DNA of 64,000 nt, from contig NZ_WBJY01000001.1 of NCBI RefSeq assembly GCF_008831085.1, positions 1,488,001-1,552,000 on the forward strand. The letters are read 5' to 3'. The position numbers and the translations under genes are program-made. The notes beneath the pieces were generated by a model. That model had not been told where the DNA came from. It worked only from the letters and a program-made list of their open reading frames with translations, and did not search any database. The DNA comes from Pseudoclavibacter endophyticus. GTDB lineage: Bacteria > Actinomycetota > Actinomycetes > Actinomycetales > Microbacteriaceae. Position 1 is the first letter of the stretch. Every line of letters begins with the position of its first letter. Of this stretch, positions 48,219-56,153 are shown piece by piece.

Positions 48219-49573
48219 CCATCGTGCTCCTGGTCGCGGCGGTCGTCGCGATGGTCGCCATCAGCGGTCTGCTCGCGGCGAGCGAGACCGCCATCGGGAC
48301 CCTGTCGCGAGCCGACGTCGAAGAATTGGCCGACGAGAGCCCGAGAATCGAGGGGCAGCTGCGGAAGATCGCCGCTGCCCCGGAGGCCCACGTGGGCGCG
48401 CTGACCTTCACGCGCGTCGTCCTCGAATCGATGGCGGCCGTCCTCGTGACGCTCATCTTCGTCGACGTCTTCGAACAACCGTGGCAGGCGTTTCTCGTCG
48501 CGGTCCTGGTGATGATGATCGTCTCGTTCCTGCTGACCGGAGCCAGTCCGAGGTCGGTCGGTCGTACCCGTCCCGCGGCGATCCTCCGCATGAGCGCCCG
48601 CTTGGCCCGGGTTTTGCGCGTCGTCATGGGCCCGTTCGCGCAGCTGCTCGTGAGCGTCGGCGACCGTGTGACGCCCGATCGTTCGAGCAGAGCGGGCTCG
48701 CTGCGAAGCGAGGAGCACCTTTTGAGCATGGTCGACGAGGCGGCCGAGCTCGAGGTGCTGGAGGACGAGGACCGGGAACGGATCCGGTCGGCCTTCGCCT
48801 TCGGCGACCGGATTGTGCGCGAGGTGATGGTGGCGCGAACCGACATGACGACCGCCGACGCGGACCTCACGACCGCTCAGGCGGTCGCGATGTTCCTGGA
48901 AGCGGGGATCTCGCGCGCGCCCGTCATTGGGCGGGACGGCGACGACGTTCGCGGCGTGCTCTACTTCAAGGACCTCGTCGCCGCCTACCTCGACGACACG
49001 AAACCACCGACGACGGTCGAGCACCTCGCTCGTCCCGCGGACTTCGTTCCCGAATCCCTGCCCGCGGACGAACTTCTCGCTCGCATGCAGCGGACGTCGA
49101 CGCACTTCGCGATGGTGGTCGACGAGTACGGCGGCATCGCGGGCCTCGTGACGCTGGAGGACCTCATCGAGGAACTGGTCGGGGAGATCACGGACGAGTA
49201 CGACCACGAGGACGACGTCGAGTCAACGGGGCCGGGGGAGTACCGGGTGCCGTCGCAGCTCACGACCGAGGAGCTCGGCGACCTGTTCGCGCTCGAGATC
49301 CACGACGATGACGTCGACACGGTCGGCGGGCTCATCGGCAAGGCGCTCGGCAAGGTCCCGGAGCGCGGCGATGTTGCGTTCGTTGAAGGCCTGCGCCTCG
49401 AGGCCGAGCGAGTCGGCCGCCGGGGTCGCGTCACGACCGTGGTGGTGCGGCGGGCCAGGGACCATGAGTCACAGCCGGGCGACGATGGCGACGAGGTCGG
49501 GCGCGACGAGATCGAAGCGGTGCTTCGCCGAAACGCGCGCGACGATGGCTCACAACCGGAACGGGGTACGTGA
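48215..49573 (+). CDS. CorC/HlyC-type transporter-associated membrane protein (CNNM/CorC family)
   Basis: A 452-residue protein with an N-terminal CNNM domain of about three helices (starting with [22 protein letters not shown]). Two CBS domains follow at residues about 205-325 ([10 protein letters not shown]..., then [29 protein letters not shown]), then a CorC_HlyC C-terminal domain ([18 protein letters not shown]). Family members support magnesium or cobalt efflux. The GTG start overlaps ybeY (GTGA), and the era ATG overlaps its stop. Confidence 0.92.
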
Positions 49574-50538
49574 TGAACGATGGAGCCGACAATTCGCAAA
49601 ACGAGGCGGAGGGTGGCGACGGCGTCGCGAACCCGGGTCACGGAGCCGTCGACGAGTACCGTGCGGGGTTCGTGACGTTCGTCGGGCGCCCGAACGTCGG
49701 CAAATCGACGCTCACCAACGCGCTGGTCGGCGAGAAGATCGTCATCACGTCGCCGAAACCGCAGACGACCAGACGGGCGGTTCGCGGGATCGTGCACCGT
49801 CCCGGCGGTCAGCTCATCATCATCGACACGCCGGGCATGCACCGGCCCCGAACCCTCCTCGGCGAGCGGCTGAACGACATCGTGCAGCAGACACTCGCCG
49901 AGGTCGACGTCGTGGCGTTCTGCGTGCCCGCGGACGAGCCGATCGGGCCCGGAGACCGCTTCATCGCGGCGCAGCTCGACGAAGCGCCTCGTGCGAAGCA
50001 GGTCGCGCTCGTGACGAAGGCCGAGGCGGTTCCGAAGGAACGGGTCGGCGATCAGCTCCTCGCCGTATCGGAGCTTCGCGAGTGGGATTTGATCGTGCCC
50101 GTCAGCGCTCTCGGCGACATCCAGCTCGACACGCTGGTGCGCGAGCTCATCGCGCTCATGCCCGTCTCACCGCCGCTCTACCCGACGGACACGCTGACAG
50201 AGGAGACGTTCGAGCAGCGCGCCGCCGAGCTCATTCGCGAGGCCGCCCTGCGCGATGCACGCGAAGAACTGCCGCACTCGATCGCCGTTACGATCGACGA
50301 AGTCGTCCTGCTGGACGATGGTGTGACGCGTGAGGTCTATGCGAGCATCGTCGTCGAGCGAGACAGCCAGAAAGGCATCGTGATCGGCCGGGCTGCCGAG
50401 CGGCTCAAGGGGATTCGGCAACGCGCACAGCGCGAGCTGACCGCGATCGCACACGCACCGGTCTCACTCTCGCTCCACGTCAAGGTGGCGAAGGAGTGGC
50501 AGCGTGATCCCAAGCAGCTCGGTCGCCTCGGCTTCTGA
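49573..50538 (+). CDS. era: GTPase Era
   Basis: A 16S rRNA-binding GTPase for 30S assembly. The 321-residue protein has G1 GRPNVGKST, the G2 region [12 protein letters not shown]3 DTPGMHRP and a C-terminal KH domain ([13 protein letters not shown] and [25 protein letters not shown]). The G4 motif, normally NKxD or TKxD, reads TKAE here, so the base-specificity Asp is Glu. The acidic N-terminal extension of about 30 residues is typical of actinobacteria. ATG 49573 overlaps the CorC stop; GTG 49570 would add one residue. Confidence 0.94.
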
Positions 50539-51952
50539 GCGCGCGCCCTCCTCCGCCCCGGGGCCGTCACGGGATGCGCGCGGCAGCGGTGCGGTGCGGC
50601 GCCGCCTGCTTGCGTTGACCGGCACTCGCGACCGTGACCCCTCGACGGTCTCGGAGACGGGGTTCGTCGGGTGGTGGAAGCGCAATACCCGCGAGATGCG
50701 GTGGATGCACTGGACGGTCGACATCGCCTTCGCTCTCCTCATCGAGGTGCTCATCGGGTGGCCGTACGTCATGCTCGCCTCGAGCCGCGTGTACCTCGAG
50801 CCCCTGCTGTTCGTGCCCTGGGTGCTGTATTTCGCGGCGATCGTGCTGCGCCGACCAACTCCCGGATTCGCCCTGTGGCTCTGCGTGATCGCCGTGCTCT
50901 TCAAGGCAGTGACCGGCACCGAGCCGCACGGCCAGGACCTCGCGATCGGCATCGTGCTGTACTCGGCCGCCGCGTACGGCTCACGGCGACTTCGCTGGTT
51001 CGCCATCGCGTTGTGCGGGCTGTTCCCGGCGCTCCTCGTCGTGTTCATATCGGTGCGGCCGATGCGCAGCTTCTTCCTCTCGATCTACGAGACCGTCATC
51101 CAGGGCGGGCCGATCCTCGTGATCGTCGTCGGGGCGGTGCTGTGGACGGTCTTCACCTTCCTGCTGCTCATGTGCTGGCTCGCAGGAACCGCGCGTCGCG
51201 CCCAGGCGAACGCGGCGGAGGCGGCGCATCGCCGCGAGGTTGCAGAGCTCGAGAGTCTGCGCAGCCGCGAGCAGCTGTTCGTCGAACAGGAGCGCAACCG
51301 TATTGCGCGCGACATGCACGACGTGGTCGCGCACTCGTTGGCGGTCGTCGTCGCGCAGGCCGACGGCGGCCGGTACGCCATGCGCGCGAACCCGCAGGCG
51401 GGCGAGCAATCGCTTGCGACGATCGCCGAGACCGCACGAGAGGCCCTGTACGAGGTCCGTGGCCTGCTGGGTCAGCTGCGCCACAGTCAGCCGGAGGGGC
51501 CGCAGCGCGGTTTCGCCGATCTGCCGGCTGTCCTCGAGCGCATGCGCGCCGCGGGGCTTCGACTCGAGATCGAGGCGAAGGGCGAGCCGCGTCCGCTCGG
51601 CAAGGCGGCCGACACCGCGATGTTCCGGCTCGTGCAAGAGGCATGCACGAACTCGCTCCGGCACGGGGATCCGCGCGCTCCAACGGTCATCAGCGTCGCG
51701 TGGAGCGATGAGCTGCACGTGCGCGTGACCAACGTCGTCAATCCCGTGCCGCCGCCGCCGCGACCCGACTCCGGGCACGGATTGATCGGGATGCGCGAGC
51801 GCATCGTCACGGCGGGCGGCAGGCTCGAGACGGGTCGGCACGGGGACCACTTCGTCGTGAGCGCGGTCGTGCCGACGGCGGCGCTCGCGACGCACGGCGG
51901 GCCGGTCGATGTGCCACCGCGCGACGACGCCGGGGGCAGACCGGCAGTGTAG
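50504..51952 (+). CDS. NarL/DesK-type sensor histidine kinase
   Basis: A 482-residue membrane sensor kinase. About five helices lie between residues 70 and 228 (the first near 70-90), followed by a HisKA_3 dimerisation domain with the phospho-acceptor His in ERNRIARDMHDVVAHS (H272). The HATPase_c domain has QEACTNSLRHG (N box) and GHGLIGMRERI (G box), and a Pro-rich tail follows. The GTG start at 50504 lies 35 bases inside era and is uncertain; GTG 50594 is an alternative that would trim 30 residues. A matching response regulator follows. The signal is unknown. Confidence 0.9.
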   Translation: MIPSSSVASASERAPSSAPGPSRDARGSGAVRRRLLALTGTRDRDPSTVSETGFVGWWKRNTREMRWMHWTVDIAFALLIEVLIGWPYVMLASSRVYLEPLLFVPWVLYFAAIVLRRPTPGFALWLCVIAVLFKAVTGTEPHGQDLAIGIVLYSAAAYGSRRLRWFAIALCGLFPALLVVFISVRPMRSFFLSIYETVIQGGPILVIVVGAVLWTVFTFLLLMCWLAGTARRAQANAAEAAHRREVAELESLRSREQLFVEQERNRIARDMHDVVAHSLAVVVAQADGGRYAMRANPQAGEQSLATIAETAREALYEVRGLLGQLRHSQPEGPQRGFADLPAVLERMRAAGLRLEIEAKGEPRPLGKAADTAMFRLVQEACTNSLRHGDPRAPTVISVAWSDELHVRVTNVVNPVPPPPRPDSGHGLIGMRERIVTAGGRLETGRHGDHFVVSAVVPTAALATHGGPVDVPPRDDAGGRPAV

Positions 51953-52004
51953 AAGCGTCGGCCCGCCCCGGCCCCGAGCGCGCGTCATGAAGCGCGCGTG
52001 CGGC

Positions 52005-52010
52005 TACGCT
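52005..52010 (+). promoter_or_regulatory. -10 element of the response regulator gene
   Basis: TACGCT lies 52 bases before the response regulator ATG, so the regulator may be transcribed apart from its kinase. Confidence 0.4.
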
Positions 52011-52062
52011 TGTGCCTATTGGGCCCGCCGACGACGGCCGAGGCCATGCAAGGGAGTCACGA

Positions 52063-52734
52063 ATGTCGAACGCGCAGCCAGGGGGCGCGCCCATCAGGGT
52101 CGCGCTCGTCGATGACCAACCGTTGTTCCGCGGCGGCATTCGTATGCTCGTCGACAGCCAGCCCGACATGACGTTCGTGGGCGAGGCGAGTGACGGGCGG
52201 CAGGCCATCGCCCTCGCGGTGCAGCTGAAGCCGGACGTCATCCTCATGGACGTCCGGATGCCGGTGCTGGACGGCCTCGAGGCGACGCGCGAGATCGTCG
52301 CGCGCGGCGTCGAATCGAGGATCCTCGTGCTTACGACGTTCGACCTCGACGAGGCAGTCGCGAAGGCCGTCGCAGCGGGCGCAAGCGGGTTCGTGCTGAA
52401 AGACGCGGACCCGGAGTTCCTGCTCGCCGCGATCCGCACGGTGCGCTCGGGCGCCGAGGTGTTCGCCGCACAGGCGACGGCAGACCTTATTCGCCGATTC
52501 TCGCAGTCACCGAACCGACTCGGCGGCGAGCCCGAGGAGTTCGGCACCCTCACCGAGCGTGAGCGGGAAATGTTCTTCCACGCCGCGAAGGGCCTCTCGA
52601 ACGGCGAGATCGCAAAGCAGGAGTACCTCAGCGAGGCGACGGTCAAGACGCACATCTCGCGAGTGCTCACGAAGCTCGACCTCCGGGATCGCGTGCAGCT
52701 CGTCGTGTACGCATACGAGCACGGCCTGCTCTGA
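52063..52734 (+). CDS. NarL/FixJ-family response regulator
   Basis: A 223-residue regulator with an N-terminal receiver domain (VALVDDQPLFR; phospho-acceptor D63 in VILMDVRMPVLDG; Lys in VLKDADPEFLL) and a C-terminal LuxR-type helix-turn-helix (LTEREREMFFHAAKGLSNGE, then the block beginning LSEATVKTHISRVL). ATG 52063 has AGGGAG upstream. It pairs with the kinase immediately before it. The target genes are unknown; the downstream ABC-like gene is a candidate by position. Confidence 0.93.
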   Translation: MSNAQPGGAPIRVALVDDQPLFRGGIRMLVDSQPDMTFVGEASDGRQAIALAVQLKPDVILMDVRMPVLDGLEATREIVARGVESRILVLTTFDLDEAVAKAVAAGASGFVLKDADPEFLLAAIRTVRSGAEVFAAQATADLIRRFSQSPNRLGGEPEEFGTLTEREREMFFHAAKGLSNGEIAKQEYLSEATVKTHISRVLTKLDLRDRVQLVVYAYEHGLL

Positions 52735-52740
52735 GGCCGC

Positions 52741-52754
52741 GGGGAGGCCTCCCC
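52741..52754. promoter_or_regulatory. perfect 14-base palindrome after the response regulator
   Basis: GGGGAGGCCTCCCC reads the same on both strands and lies 65 bases before the -10 of the next gene. It could be an operator, for example for the adjacent LuxR-type regulator, or part of a terminator. Nothing in the sequence decides between them. Confidence 0.35.
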
Positions 52755-52818
52755 ACTCATCCGCGGGGATGACCTCGCGCCCGAAGTGTGGCTGATGCTC
52801 GGCCCGGGCGGTGCCCCG

Positions 52819-52824
52819 TAATCT
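52819..52824 (+). promoter_or_regulatory. -10 element of the leaderless ABC-ATPase-like gene
   Basis: TAATCT ends 6 bases before ATG 52831; no ribosome-binding site. An intact promoter argues that the gene is expressed. Confidence 0.55.
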
Positions 52825-52830
52825 CGGGGC

Positions 52831-53640
52831 ATGACGGTCACCACCGACGGGCTCGGCGCCTCCACCGACACGGTCGCCCCGGACGGCGCTGTCGTCGTGC
52901 GCCTCGACGAGCTCGTCGCAGCAGAGGCCGGTCCCGCGAGTTTCGACCTGTATGCGGGCGAGGTCACGATCATCGTGAGCCGCCCCGAGGATGGCGGCCC
53001 AGCGCTGATGCGCACGGTCGCAGGTCTTCGGGCCCCTGATGCGGGACGCGTCACCATCGCCGGCCGTGACCTCGCGGTGCTTGACCCGGAGGACGCACGG
53101 CAGGCCCGCTACGAGCTCGTTGGCTACGTGCTGCGCGACATCGGTCTGACGCCCGAGCTCACGGTCGCCCAGAACATCGCCGCGCCCCTCGGACTCGTGC
53201 GGGATGGCCGCGTGCACGACGGTGCCGGCTGGCTCGCGCGACTCGCCCGGAGCCTCGGCTTCGAGCCCGATCTCCAACGACCGGCGGGAGCGCTCGATCC
53301 GGGCACCCAGCAGCGCGTGGCGATCGCCCGGGCGCTCGCCACTCGTCCCGCCCTCGTGTATGCCGATGAGCCCATAGCCCGGCTGGGCGAGCGGGACGGC
53401 CGCGTCGTGCTCGCGCTGTTGCGGACGATCGCCCACGAGTTCGGCATCGCGATGGTCATCTGCACGAGTGACCCGGCTCTGGTCGGAAGCGGCGAACGGG
53501 CGATCGCCGTGCGCGACGGACGCGTCGTCGGGGACCGCCGCGGCGCTTCGGCGGAATGGCTTCGGCGGATGCTCGACGGCGACGAGCTCGGCGTGCCCGA
53601 CGCGGGCGCAGCATCCCCGGATGGGAACGGCTCGCCGTAG
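52831..53640 (+). CDS. degenerate ABC-transporter-type ATPase lacking catalytic motifs
   Basis: A 269-residue protein whose overall pattern follows LolD/MacB-type ABC ATPases (strand order, AGLRAPDAGRVTIAGRDL, ELTVAQNIAAPL, QQRVAIARALATRPALVYADEP). However, Walker A (GxxGxGKS/T) is replaced by SRPEDGGPA (about residues 50-58). The Q loop lacks its Gln (YVLRD). The signature LSGGQ reads LDPGT (155-159), the D loop reads ARLGE, and the H-loop His is Ser (CTSDP). Only the Walker B Asp-Glu remains. The frame is intact with normal codon use. No permease is adjacent. It probably has no ATPase activity and may act as a regulatory or structural partner; that is inference. Confidence 0.8.
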   Translation: MTVTTDGLGASTDTVAPDGAVVVRLDELVAAEAGPASFDLYAGEVTIIVSRPEDGGPALMRTVAGLRAPDAGRVTIAGRDLAVLDPEDARQARYELVGYVLRDIGLTPELTVAQNIAAPLGLVRDGRVHDGAGWLARLARSLGFEPDLQRPAGALDPGTQQRVAIARALATRPALVYADEPIARLGERDGRVVLALLRTIAHEFGIAMVICTSDPALVGSGERAIAVRDGRVVGDRRGASAEWLRRMLDGDELGVPDAGAASPDGNGSP

Positions 53641-53697
53641 TCCTGCCGCGTGCCGCGCACGGGCGGTGGCACCTCCATGAGGCCAGGGGGACGGTGT

Positions 53698-53703
53698 TAC
53701 GCT
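53698..53703 (+). promoter_or_regulatory. -10 element of the leuA leader peptide
   Basis: TACGCT ends 6 bases before the leader-peptide ATG at 53710. Confidence 0.55.
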
Positions 53704-53709
53704 ATCGGC

Positions 53710-53766
53710 ATGCTGTTCGGCATGCTCCTTCTTCGCTGCCGCGACGAGGCTTCGTTCAAAGCCTGA
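53710..53766 (+). CDS. leuL: leucine leader peptide of leuA
   Basis: An 18-residue leaderless ORF (MLFGMLLLRCRDEASFKA) placed 99 bases before leuA. It has three consecutive Leu codons, CTC CTT CTT (53725-53733), plus CTG at codon 2; CTT is rare in this GC-rich genome, which would make stalling sensitive to charged tRNA-Leu. A strong hairpin follows within the ORF. Leucine leader peptides before leuA are known in actinobacteria. Confidence 0.75.
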   Translation: MLFGMLLLRCRDEASFKA

Positions 53767-53776
53767 CTCGTCGCGG
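53739..53776 (+). promoter_or_regulatory. attenuator hairpin of the leuA leader
   Basis: A perfect 10-base stem, CCGCGACGAG (53739-53748) with CTCGTCGCGG (53767-53776), carries a smaller inner GGCTT/AAGCC stem. It begins 5 bases after the Leu codon run, so a ribosome stalled there would open it. A second weak hairpin (GCCCC/GGGGC) lies near 53822-53839, before leuA. Confidence 0.6.
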
Positions 53777-53796
53777 AGGTTTGCCGTGGGCTTTGA

Positions 53797-55638
<1,842 letters not shown>

Positions 55639-55726
55639 CCACGACGTCCCGCCCGGCGGCGAGCATCACCGGACGTACCGTCTGGACGCCGTCTTTCAGC
55701 CTCGACGGTGTTCGAATGTTCCGAGC

Positions 55727-55753
55727 TGTCGATTTCGACGATCGTTCCGCGAC
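55727..55753 (+). promoter_or_regulatory. ECF42-type promoter of the DGPF-sigma operon
   Basis: TGTCGA (55727-55732), a 17-base spacer, then CGAC (55750-55753). ECF42 sigma factors are reported to recognise TGTCGA at -35 and a CGA-type -10, so the module probably regulates itself. The start of transcription would be near 55760, about 40 bases before the first gene. Confidence 0.65.
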
Positions 55754-55799
55754 ATCATGGTGACGGGGAAACGCGCCGTCGCGATGATTGGAGAAGGTC

Positions 55800-56153
55800 A
55801 TGAAATATTTGGTGCTGCTCATTGGTGACGGTGACGAGCCGGACTGGGCGACGATGACGGAGGCGGAGCAGGCTGCCGCGATGCAGAGGTTCGCCGACTT
55901 CGACGCCGTGTGCGCCGAACGCGACGGCGTGTCGATCCTCGGGGGCGAGGCGCTCGAAGGAGCCGACGCGACGACGGTGCTGCGCACCCGCGACGGTCAG
56001 CGGTCCGTGACGGAGGGGCCCTACGCGGAGGCGATCGAGGGCCTCGGCGGGTTCTATCTGATCGAGGCGCCCGATCACGACGTGCTCATCGAGCTGCTGG
56101 GCGTGCTGCCGGCGTACGACATGCAGGTCATGCCCGTTTCCGTGCTCGGGTGA
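55800..56153 (+). CDS. YCII-related (DGPF-domain) protein
   Basis: A 117-residue protein with a YCII/DGPF fold: a MKYLVLLIGD start, an ILGGEALEG segment, and the family motif as EGPYAEAIEGLGGFYLIE (near residue 67). Its role is unknown, but DGPF proteins are the hallmark partners of ECF42 sigma factors, and one is encoded next. ATG 55800 is chosen with a GGAG site 6 bases upstream; TTG 55788 is possible. Preceded by an ECF42-like promoter. Confidence 0.85.
   Translation: MKYLVLLIGDGDEPDWATMTEAEQAAAMQRFADFDAVCAERDGVSILGGEALEGADATTVLRTRDGQRSVTEGPYAEAIEGLGGFYLIEAPDHDVLIELLGVLPAYDMQVMPVSVLG

Follow-up and report, generated by a model that had tools for sequence, protein, structure and literature searches.

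A degenerate ABC-type ATPase retained beside a two-component system in two genera of Microbacteriaceae, a possible nucleotide-independent regulator

Introduction

What could an ABC-type ATPase be kept for once the residues that contact ATP are gone? ABC ATPases are among the most abundant bacterial protein families. Degenerate members are known mainly from functional transporters, in which they make up one of the two halves (PMC7756269). Our searches of open-access papers, a set without most subscription journals, turned up no account of a bacterial ABC ATPase family that is both stand-alone and fully degenerate. The question is posed by gene P0001, which lies in a 64,000-nucleotide stretch of the Pseudoclavibacter endophyticus genome (the window) downstream of a two-component gene pair.

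Results

A degenerate ABC ATPase downstream of a two-component gene pair

Residues 36-183 of P0001 match the Pfam family ABC_tran (E 9.8e-16, 59 bits against a cut-off of 25), and no family beyond it was found in Pfam at E 0.001. The ABC_tran cut-off was also passed by five of the six other members scanned (25.9-38 bits), P0013 giving no match. The best NCBIfam matches are LolD, DevA and MacB, each far under its curated cut-off, and the scores (104.9 against 307.75 bits for LolD, 89.2 against 264.85 for FtsE and 95.9 against 966 for MacB) place P0001 outside equivalog membership. The protein resembles ATPases of the MacB/LolD/FtsE type (type VII ABC) in length, in the order of its conserved segments, in Walker B and in the signature helix, and MacB, YtrE, YbbA, FtsE, LolD and BceA chains are among the 60 best PDB matches of a profile of its orthologues (A3, see below). 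Unlike those ATPases, it has no adjoining permease and falls below the NCBIfam cut-offs, and it lacks the Walker A Lys, the Q-loop Gln, the LSGGQ signature and the H-loop His, the residues by which an active ABC ATPase is recognised.

Table 1. Features of the locus, with positions in the window
Feature	Position	Strand	Description
era (presumed)	49570..50538	+	left syntenic anchor
Membrane sensor histidine kinase	50504..51952	+	DUF7134, HisKA_3
NarL-type response regulator	52063..52734	+	78-89% identity across the 12 further genomes that have a full-length copy
Upstream box TGATG	52793..52797	+	putative activator or -35 site
Predicted -10 element TAATCT	52819..52824	+	6 nt before ATG; probable leaderless start
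Pseudo-ATPase gene P0001	52831..53640	+	269 aa, ATG start, open frame; ABC nucleotide-binding domain
Degenerate Walker A, residues 50-57	52978..53001	+	SRPEDGGP against GPSGSGKS; Lys replaced by Gly56
Q-loop position, residue 102	53134..53136	+	Arg102 where relatives have Gln
Degenerate ABC signature, residues 155-159	53293..53307	+	LDPGT against LSGGQ
Retained Walker B, residues 176-181	53356..53373	+	VYADEP, Asp179 and Glu180 present
H-loop position, residue 213	53467..53469	+	Ser213 where relatives have His
Leu-rich ORF	53710-53766		18 aa, before leuA
leuA (presumed)	53866..55638	+	right syntenic anchor

The motif columns of P0001 were read against an alignment of 59 intact relatives (Table 1), in which the D-loop reads NLDS where P0001 has RLGE. 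An initial sequence-only reading had stated that every catalytic motif except Walker B was lost. The column check bears this out for the motifs named, but the helix QQRVAIARAL that follows the signature survives as well. P0001 descends from an ABC-type ATPase and, judging from its motifs, would neither bind nor hydrolyse ATP productively.

The same reading had noted an open frame with normal codon use, no adjoining permease and a two-component pair upstream, all of which we also found: the gene comes after those for a HisKA_3 kinase and a NarL-type regulator, and GC by codon position (0.81/0.54/0.84) resembles that of the histidine kinase gene (0.71/0.52/0.88), so that codon use appears near normal. 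The open frame is weak evidence by itself since the genome is GC-rich and neutral runs often stay free of stops, as did 239 of 400 simulations over the distance between P0001 and its orthologue in genome G003 (substitutions only, without indels); in several of these genomes the same simulation produced few stops under neutrality. A scan of window positions 50000-56000 against Rfam gave no match at E 1.

Orthologues in two genera share the motif loss

Two genera of Microbacteriaceae, represented by 21 genomes, have syntenic orthologues, each just 3' of this response regulator. The 14 genomes with a copy are 4 of the 10 from the window's genus (the one that includes Pseudoclavibacter terrae) and 10 of the 11 from the Gulosibacter genus. 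A search of 60 genomes with P0001 returned non-self matches of no more than 41% identity among the matches listed. Nineteen loci upstream of leuA were read, with no genes called in G019 and G022. The match in G003, from the window's genus, is degenerate too and lies between the regulator and leuA, and further degenerate copies of this genus were found in G008 (279 aa, P0002) and G009 (249 aa, P0004); the regulator-leuA slot contains no pseudo-ATPase in G001, G002, G004, G005, G006 and G007. A search for the regulator across 349 family genomes led to the second genus, where a copy fills this slot in six of the seven genomes of that draw and is missing from G320.

Profile A3, built from 11 copies, was run on the 11 Gulosibacter-genus genomes and on 199 family genomes. 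Among the former it recovered the known copies together with two from outside the profile, in G375 (282.8 bits) and G376 (325.6 bits), the G374 copy being already part of it as P0013 (locus L094). The copy in G377 scored 140.7 bits, inside the non-member range, and was recognised by its place beside the regulator; the score gap of A3 therefore misses some copies. This copy (L225, G377:C259) ends in an unrelated C-terminal stretch, which reflects either a recent lesion or, as this genome is in about 390 contigs, faulty assembly; it is outside every count of the 13 full-length copies given here. The 199 family genomes produced five matches of at least 252 bits, all of them rows of the profile itself, and the next best reached 185.2 bits among the matches listed. 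Every non-member locus checked from the A3 searches (35 of 35) holds an intact ABC frame within its flanks, and hence no further degenerate copy was seen outside the two genera in this sample of the family.

The Walker A Lys, the Q-loop Gln and the H-loop His are each absent from all 13 full-length copies, and not one of these copies fits the pattern for Walker A, the signature, the Q-loop or the H-loop. The first signature Gly is likewise missing throughout and the second occurs once, in the window copy, while the Walker B Asp is present in six copies and the Glu in three. The P-loop of the Gulosibacter genus has acquired a new consensus, SxDGSG in most copies, and among eight copies of this genus (the near-copy in G376 dropped) the P-loop (0.63) and the signature helix (0.62) are the most conserved segments.

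Recent decay in the window strain, of which intact orthologues had been named as the sign, is ruled out: 14 of the 21 genomes carry a degenerate orthologue, and the 13 full-length syntenic copies of the two genera are all of this kind. The simplest reading is a single old motif loss that would predate the split of the two genera; repeated independent losses could produce the same pattern less simply. A tree of 49 rows, for which some of the intact copies were selected, separates the 13 copies from all other rows by a single branch (97/98). Long branches such as those in this tree can group sequences spuriously, and we therefore give synteny preference over the tree.

Intact modules occupy the slot in other genera

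Named genomes were scanned with the regulator as query, and the best 80 loci were analysed. An ATPase lies just downstream of the regulator in 61 of these, accompanied by an FtsX-type permease in 57 of the 61. Pattern matches were obtained in these 61 ATPases for Walker A (60), signature (59), Walker B (60), H-loop (57) and Q-loop (60), and the 59 full-length intact ATPases show no variation at the Lys, Gln and His positions. Two copies are without Walker A or signature: L157 is cut off by a contig end, and L165, from Cryobacterium adonitolivorans, is truly broken. At the latter locus (L165:4700-5700) the broken ATPase and a shortened permease frame occupy the same slot, in contrast to the open pseudo-ATPases.

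Both presumed anchors, era and leuA, were in view in 29 of the best 80 loci, of which 18 hold ATPase and permease, one the ATPase alone and 10 no intact type; these 10 include the pseudo-ATPase locus L094 as well as L095 and L096, which match G005 and G001. The slot between the HisKA_3/NarL-type pair and leuA in Microbacteriaceae often holds an intact MacB/LolD-type ATPase with an FtsX-type permease. Intact relatives in the slot were seen only in other genera, a distribution that fits an intact ATPase as the ancestral state.

Three Leifsonia loci and one Diaminobutyricibacter locus have an esterase-like gene after the intact ATPase-permease genes, and a lysylphosphatidylglycerol-synthase-like gene as well in three of the four. 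In G003 and G009 homologues of both genes likewise come after the pseudo-ATPase and before leuA (L069:9654-13588 and L076:7149-11191). Such neighbours are a hint of envelope or cationic-peptide stress.

The pseudo-ATPase keeps the promoter layout of the intact module

The -10 element reported six bases before the ATG by the sequence-only reading was found there, as TAATCT. A TANNNT element lies 6-7 nt before the ATG in all 13 degenerate copies, compared with 3.2% of shuffled stretches, where earlier in-frame starts exist in five of the 13 (G003, G131, G283, G376 and G191) and the start was chosen partly by the -10. Of 46 intact copies, for which several starts were allowed, 35 have TANNNT (shuffled 1.8%) and 11 have none. 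An upstream [CTG]GA[CT] box, expected by chance in about 5% of sequences at two given distances, stands 25-26 nt before the -10 in all 13 degenerate copies and in all 35 intact copies with a -10, the box having been scanned for solely in the intact regions with TANNNT. In 11 of these 35 intact copies a possible second GA[CT] box lies upstream of the first, at a distance of about 16-17 nt. The layout of GA[CT] box, TAGCGT and ATG was also observed at many Microbacteriaceae loci and some from Rhodococcus and Knoellia (L097-L173).

Transcription is predicted to start at the ATG itself. From the position and conservation of the promoter we infer that it is driven by the neighbouring two-component system.

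Linkage to the two-component system

Across 13 genomes the sensor kinase (35-96% identity) diverges much faster than its regulator (78-100%). On the other side of the gene, the Leu-rich ORF MLFGMLLLRCRDEASFKA has TACGCT 6 nt upstream and is followed by a hairpin with a strong predicted fold (z -3.3). ORF and hairpin together are likely a leuA attenuation leader, a kind known in Actinobacteria (PMC1262725).

The strongest of the alternatives to a function within the two-component system, although a rather unlikely one, is that the pseudo-ATPase took on a new and unrelated role, for example as a scaffold, and merely stands at the ancestral address. The kinase-regulator pair is present without the gene in 7 of the 21 genomes, and the pseudo-ATPase is therefore not essential to the pair. 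A mirror-tree comparison with the kinase detected no excess co-variation (partial r 0.13, permutation p 0.18), the residual correlation being higher with LeuA (0.69), a neighbour of no expected link. These observations suit an unrelated role, which has against it that the gene adjoins the regulator in all 14 genomes with a copy and that the promoter layout is kept in all 13 examined.

The gene is kept without a cognate permease

No permease was found in the regulator-leuA slot of either genus, and the 21 genomes of the two genera were searched with the G011 permease as the query (E 1e-20). Each of the 10 genomes of the window's genus has one homologous FtsX permease away from the slot, which in G000 lies beside an intact ATPase paralogue (L002). 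None of the 11 Gulosibacter-genus genomes matched the cognate permease at E 1e-20, more distant permeases being outside this test, so that the 10 of them with the pseudo-ATPase keep it without a cognate permease.

These results bear on the proposal, made in the sequence-only reading, that the protein could pair with an active ATPase. It would then be the dead half of an asymmetric ABC transporter and share a permease with a paralogous ATPase that is active. The FtsX permease in each genome of the window's genus agrees with this. Heterodimeric exporters with one degenerate site are well known, and according to PMC7756269 substituted catalytic residues are tolerated and conserved in TAP, TmrAB, TM287/288 and CFTR, where the degenerate site is one of a pair in a working transporter. 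P0001 differs from these in being a stand-alone gene that has lost nearly all motifs, with no cognate permease found in the Gulosibacter genus. The helical subdomain is where nucleotide-binding domains dock the permease. In the eight Gulosibacter-genus copies compared above, this presumed docking segment is the least conserved, by a narrow margin (0.33, the next being 0.35). The lack of a permease match in the Gulosibacter genus disfavours an asymmetric transporter with a cognate permease, so that pairing with an active ATPase is not supported as a general role, and we regard this explanation as improbable.

Purifying selection acts on the pseudo-ATPase

A pairwise codon model was fitted to four genes in five pairs of genomes. 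In three close Gulosibacter-genus pairs the dN/dS of the pseudo-ATPase is 0.013 (G131-G376; dN 0.018, dS 1.38), 0.030 (G131-G283) and 0.029 (G376-G283), values that are approximate because dS is high (1.4-2.2), and the likelihood ratios against dN/dS = 1 are 258.9-272.4. The same pairs gave 0.001-0.007 for the response regulator and 0.011-0.040 for LeuA, and the kinase gave 0.012 in the one pair with moderate dS. The kinase in G131-G283 (dS above 5) and three fits with runaway dS (the kinase in G376-G283 and the pseudo-ATPase in G374-G375 and G240-G191) were left out of the ratios. The pseudo-ATPase is under strong purifying selection in these three pairs, its dN/dS, which the sequence-only reading had named as a check, falling far below 1. 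In two wider Gulosibacter-genus pairs the gene changes faster than its neighbours, with a higher dN (0.196 against 0.048 for LeuA and 0.111 for the kinase; 0.356 against 0.087 and 0.216).

No direct dN/dS can be given for the window copy because its synonymous sites are saturated. It shares 35% identity with its nearest same-genus orthologue, in G003, while the maximum in 400 neutral simulations was 22%, a comparison that spans the whole path between the species and not the last branch. Identities to nine Gulosibacter-genus copies are 25-35% for the window copy and 25-30% for the G003 copy, and they too span whole paths; on this measure the window copy seems to decay no faster than the G003 copy. 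Selection on the window's own copy is thus indicated only indirectly.

The three ratios, and frames of which only one in 14 is altered (the C-terminus in G377), set the family apart from pseudogenes, for the window lineage by indirect tests. A selected pseudoenzyme, in which conserved loss of catalytic residues is combined with purifying selection, is a well-supported reading, the selection being direct for the Gulosibacter genus only. The earlier claim of a selected non-catalytic protein, as opposed to random decay, accordingly stands for the Gulosibacter genus by dN/dS and shared loss, and for the window copy only indirectly, by an identity above the neutral maximum.

The weakest alternative, which we hold to be very improbable, makes the gene a slowly dying remnant of permease loss, open only as GC-rich neutral drift seldom makes stops: the few stops in the neutral simulation, the altered G377 copy and the truly broken intact-type copy in Cryobacterium would agree with it, as would the window's genus, where absence from 6 of 10 genomes, a P-loop segment only 17% identical between copies and whole-copy identities of 26-38% allow relaxed constraint, but it is contradicted for the Gulosibacter genus by dN/dS and is at odds with the window copy's excess over the neutral maximum, with a shared motif loss that most simply predates the genus split and with the persistence of promoter layout and length.

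Discussion

The reading that we prefer, and that quite possibly holds, is that of an old ABC pseudo-ATPase, maintained by selection, made from the promoter of the module and active independently of ATP; its simplest role would be to regulate the two-component system through protein contacts. The ancestral slot would have held the two-component pair, an intact ATPase and an FtsX-type permease. In the two genera no permease was found there, and the ATPase has lost every ATP-contact motif save parts of Walker B; 13 genomes retain it at full length in an open frame. Firing of the two-component system would switch on the pseudo-ATPase gene through the promoter of the former transporter, and the protein would act as a cytoplasmic protein-interaction part, its presumed partner being most simply the sensor kinase or the regulator.

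There is a likeness to the Bce-type modules (BceAB-BceRS), which also combine a two-component pair with an adjacent ABC module. In these, according to PMC7828314, the transporter signals to the kinase and BceAB keeps BceS inactive. The locus described here differs in having a NarL-type regulator with a HisKA_3 kinase, a degenerate ATPase and no remaining permease. Binding might use the surface through which the ancestral transporter would have exerted feedback on its kinase, in the manner of BceAB and BceS, and the signal would be tuned without transport.

On a more tentative view of the same history, a stand-alone family of fully dead ABC ATPases may have persisted beyond the loss of its transporter and now serve solely to regulate, independently of nucleotides, the two-component system that once controlled this transporter; the feedback part of a flux-sensing module would have stayed when the pump went. 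If this is true, an ABC ATPase can turn into a pure protein-interaction module. The natural series of intact module, pseudo-ATPase and lost gene would then offer a test of how ABC transporters and sensor kinases talk to each other.
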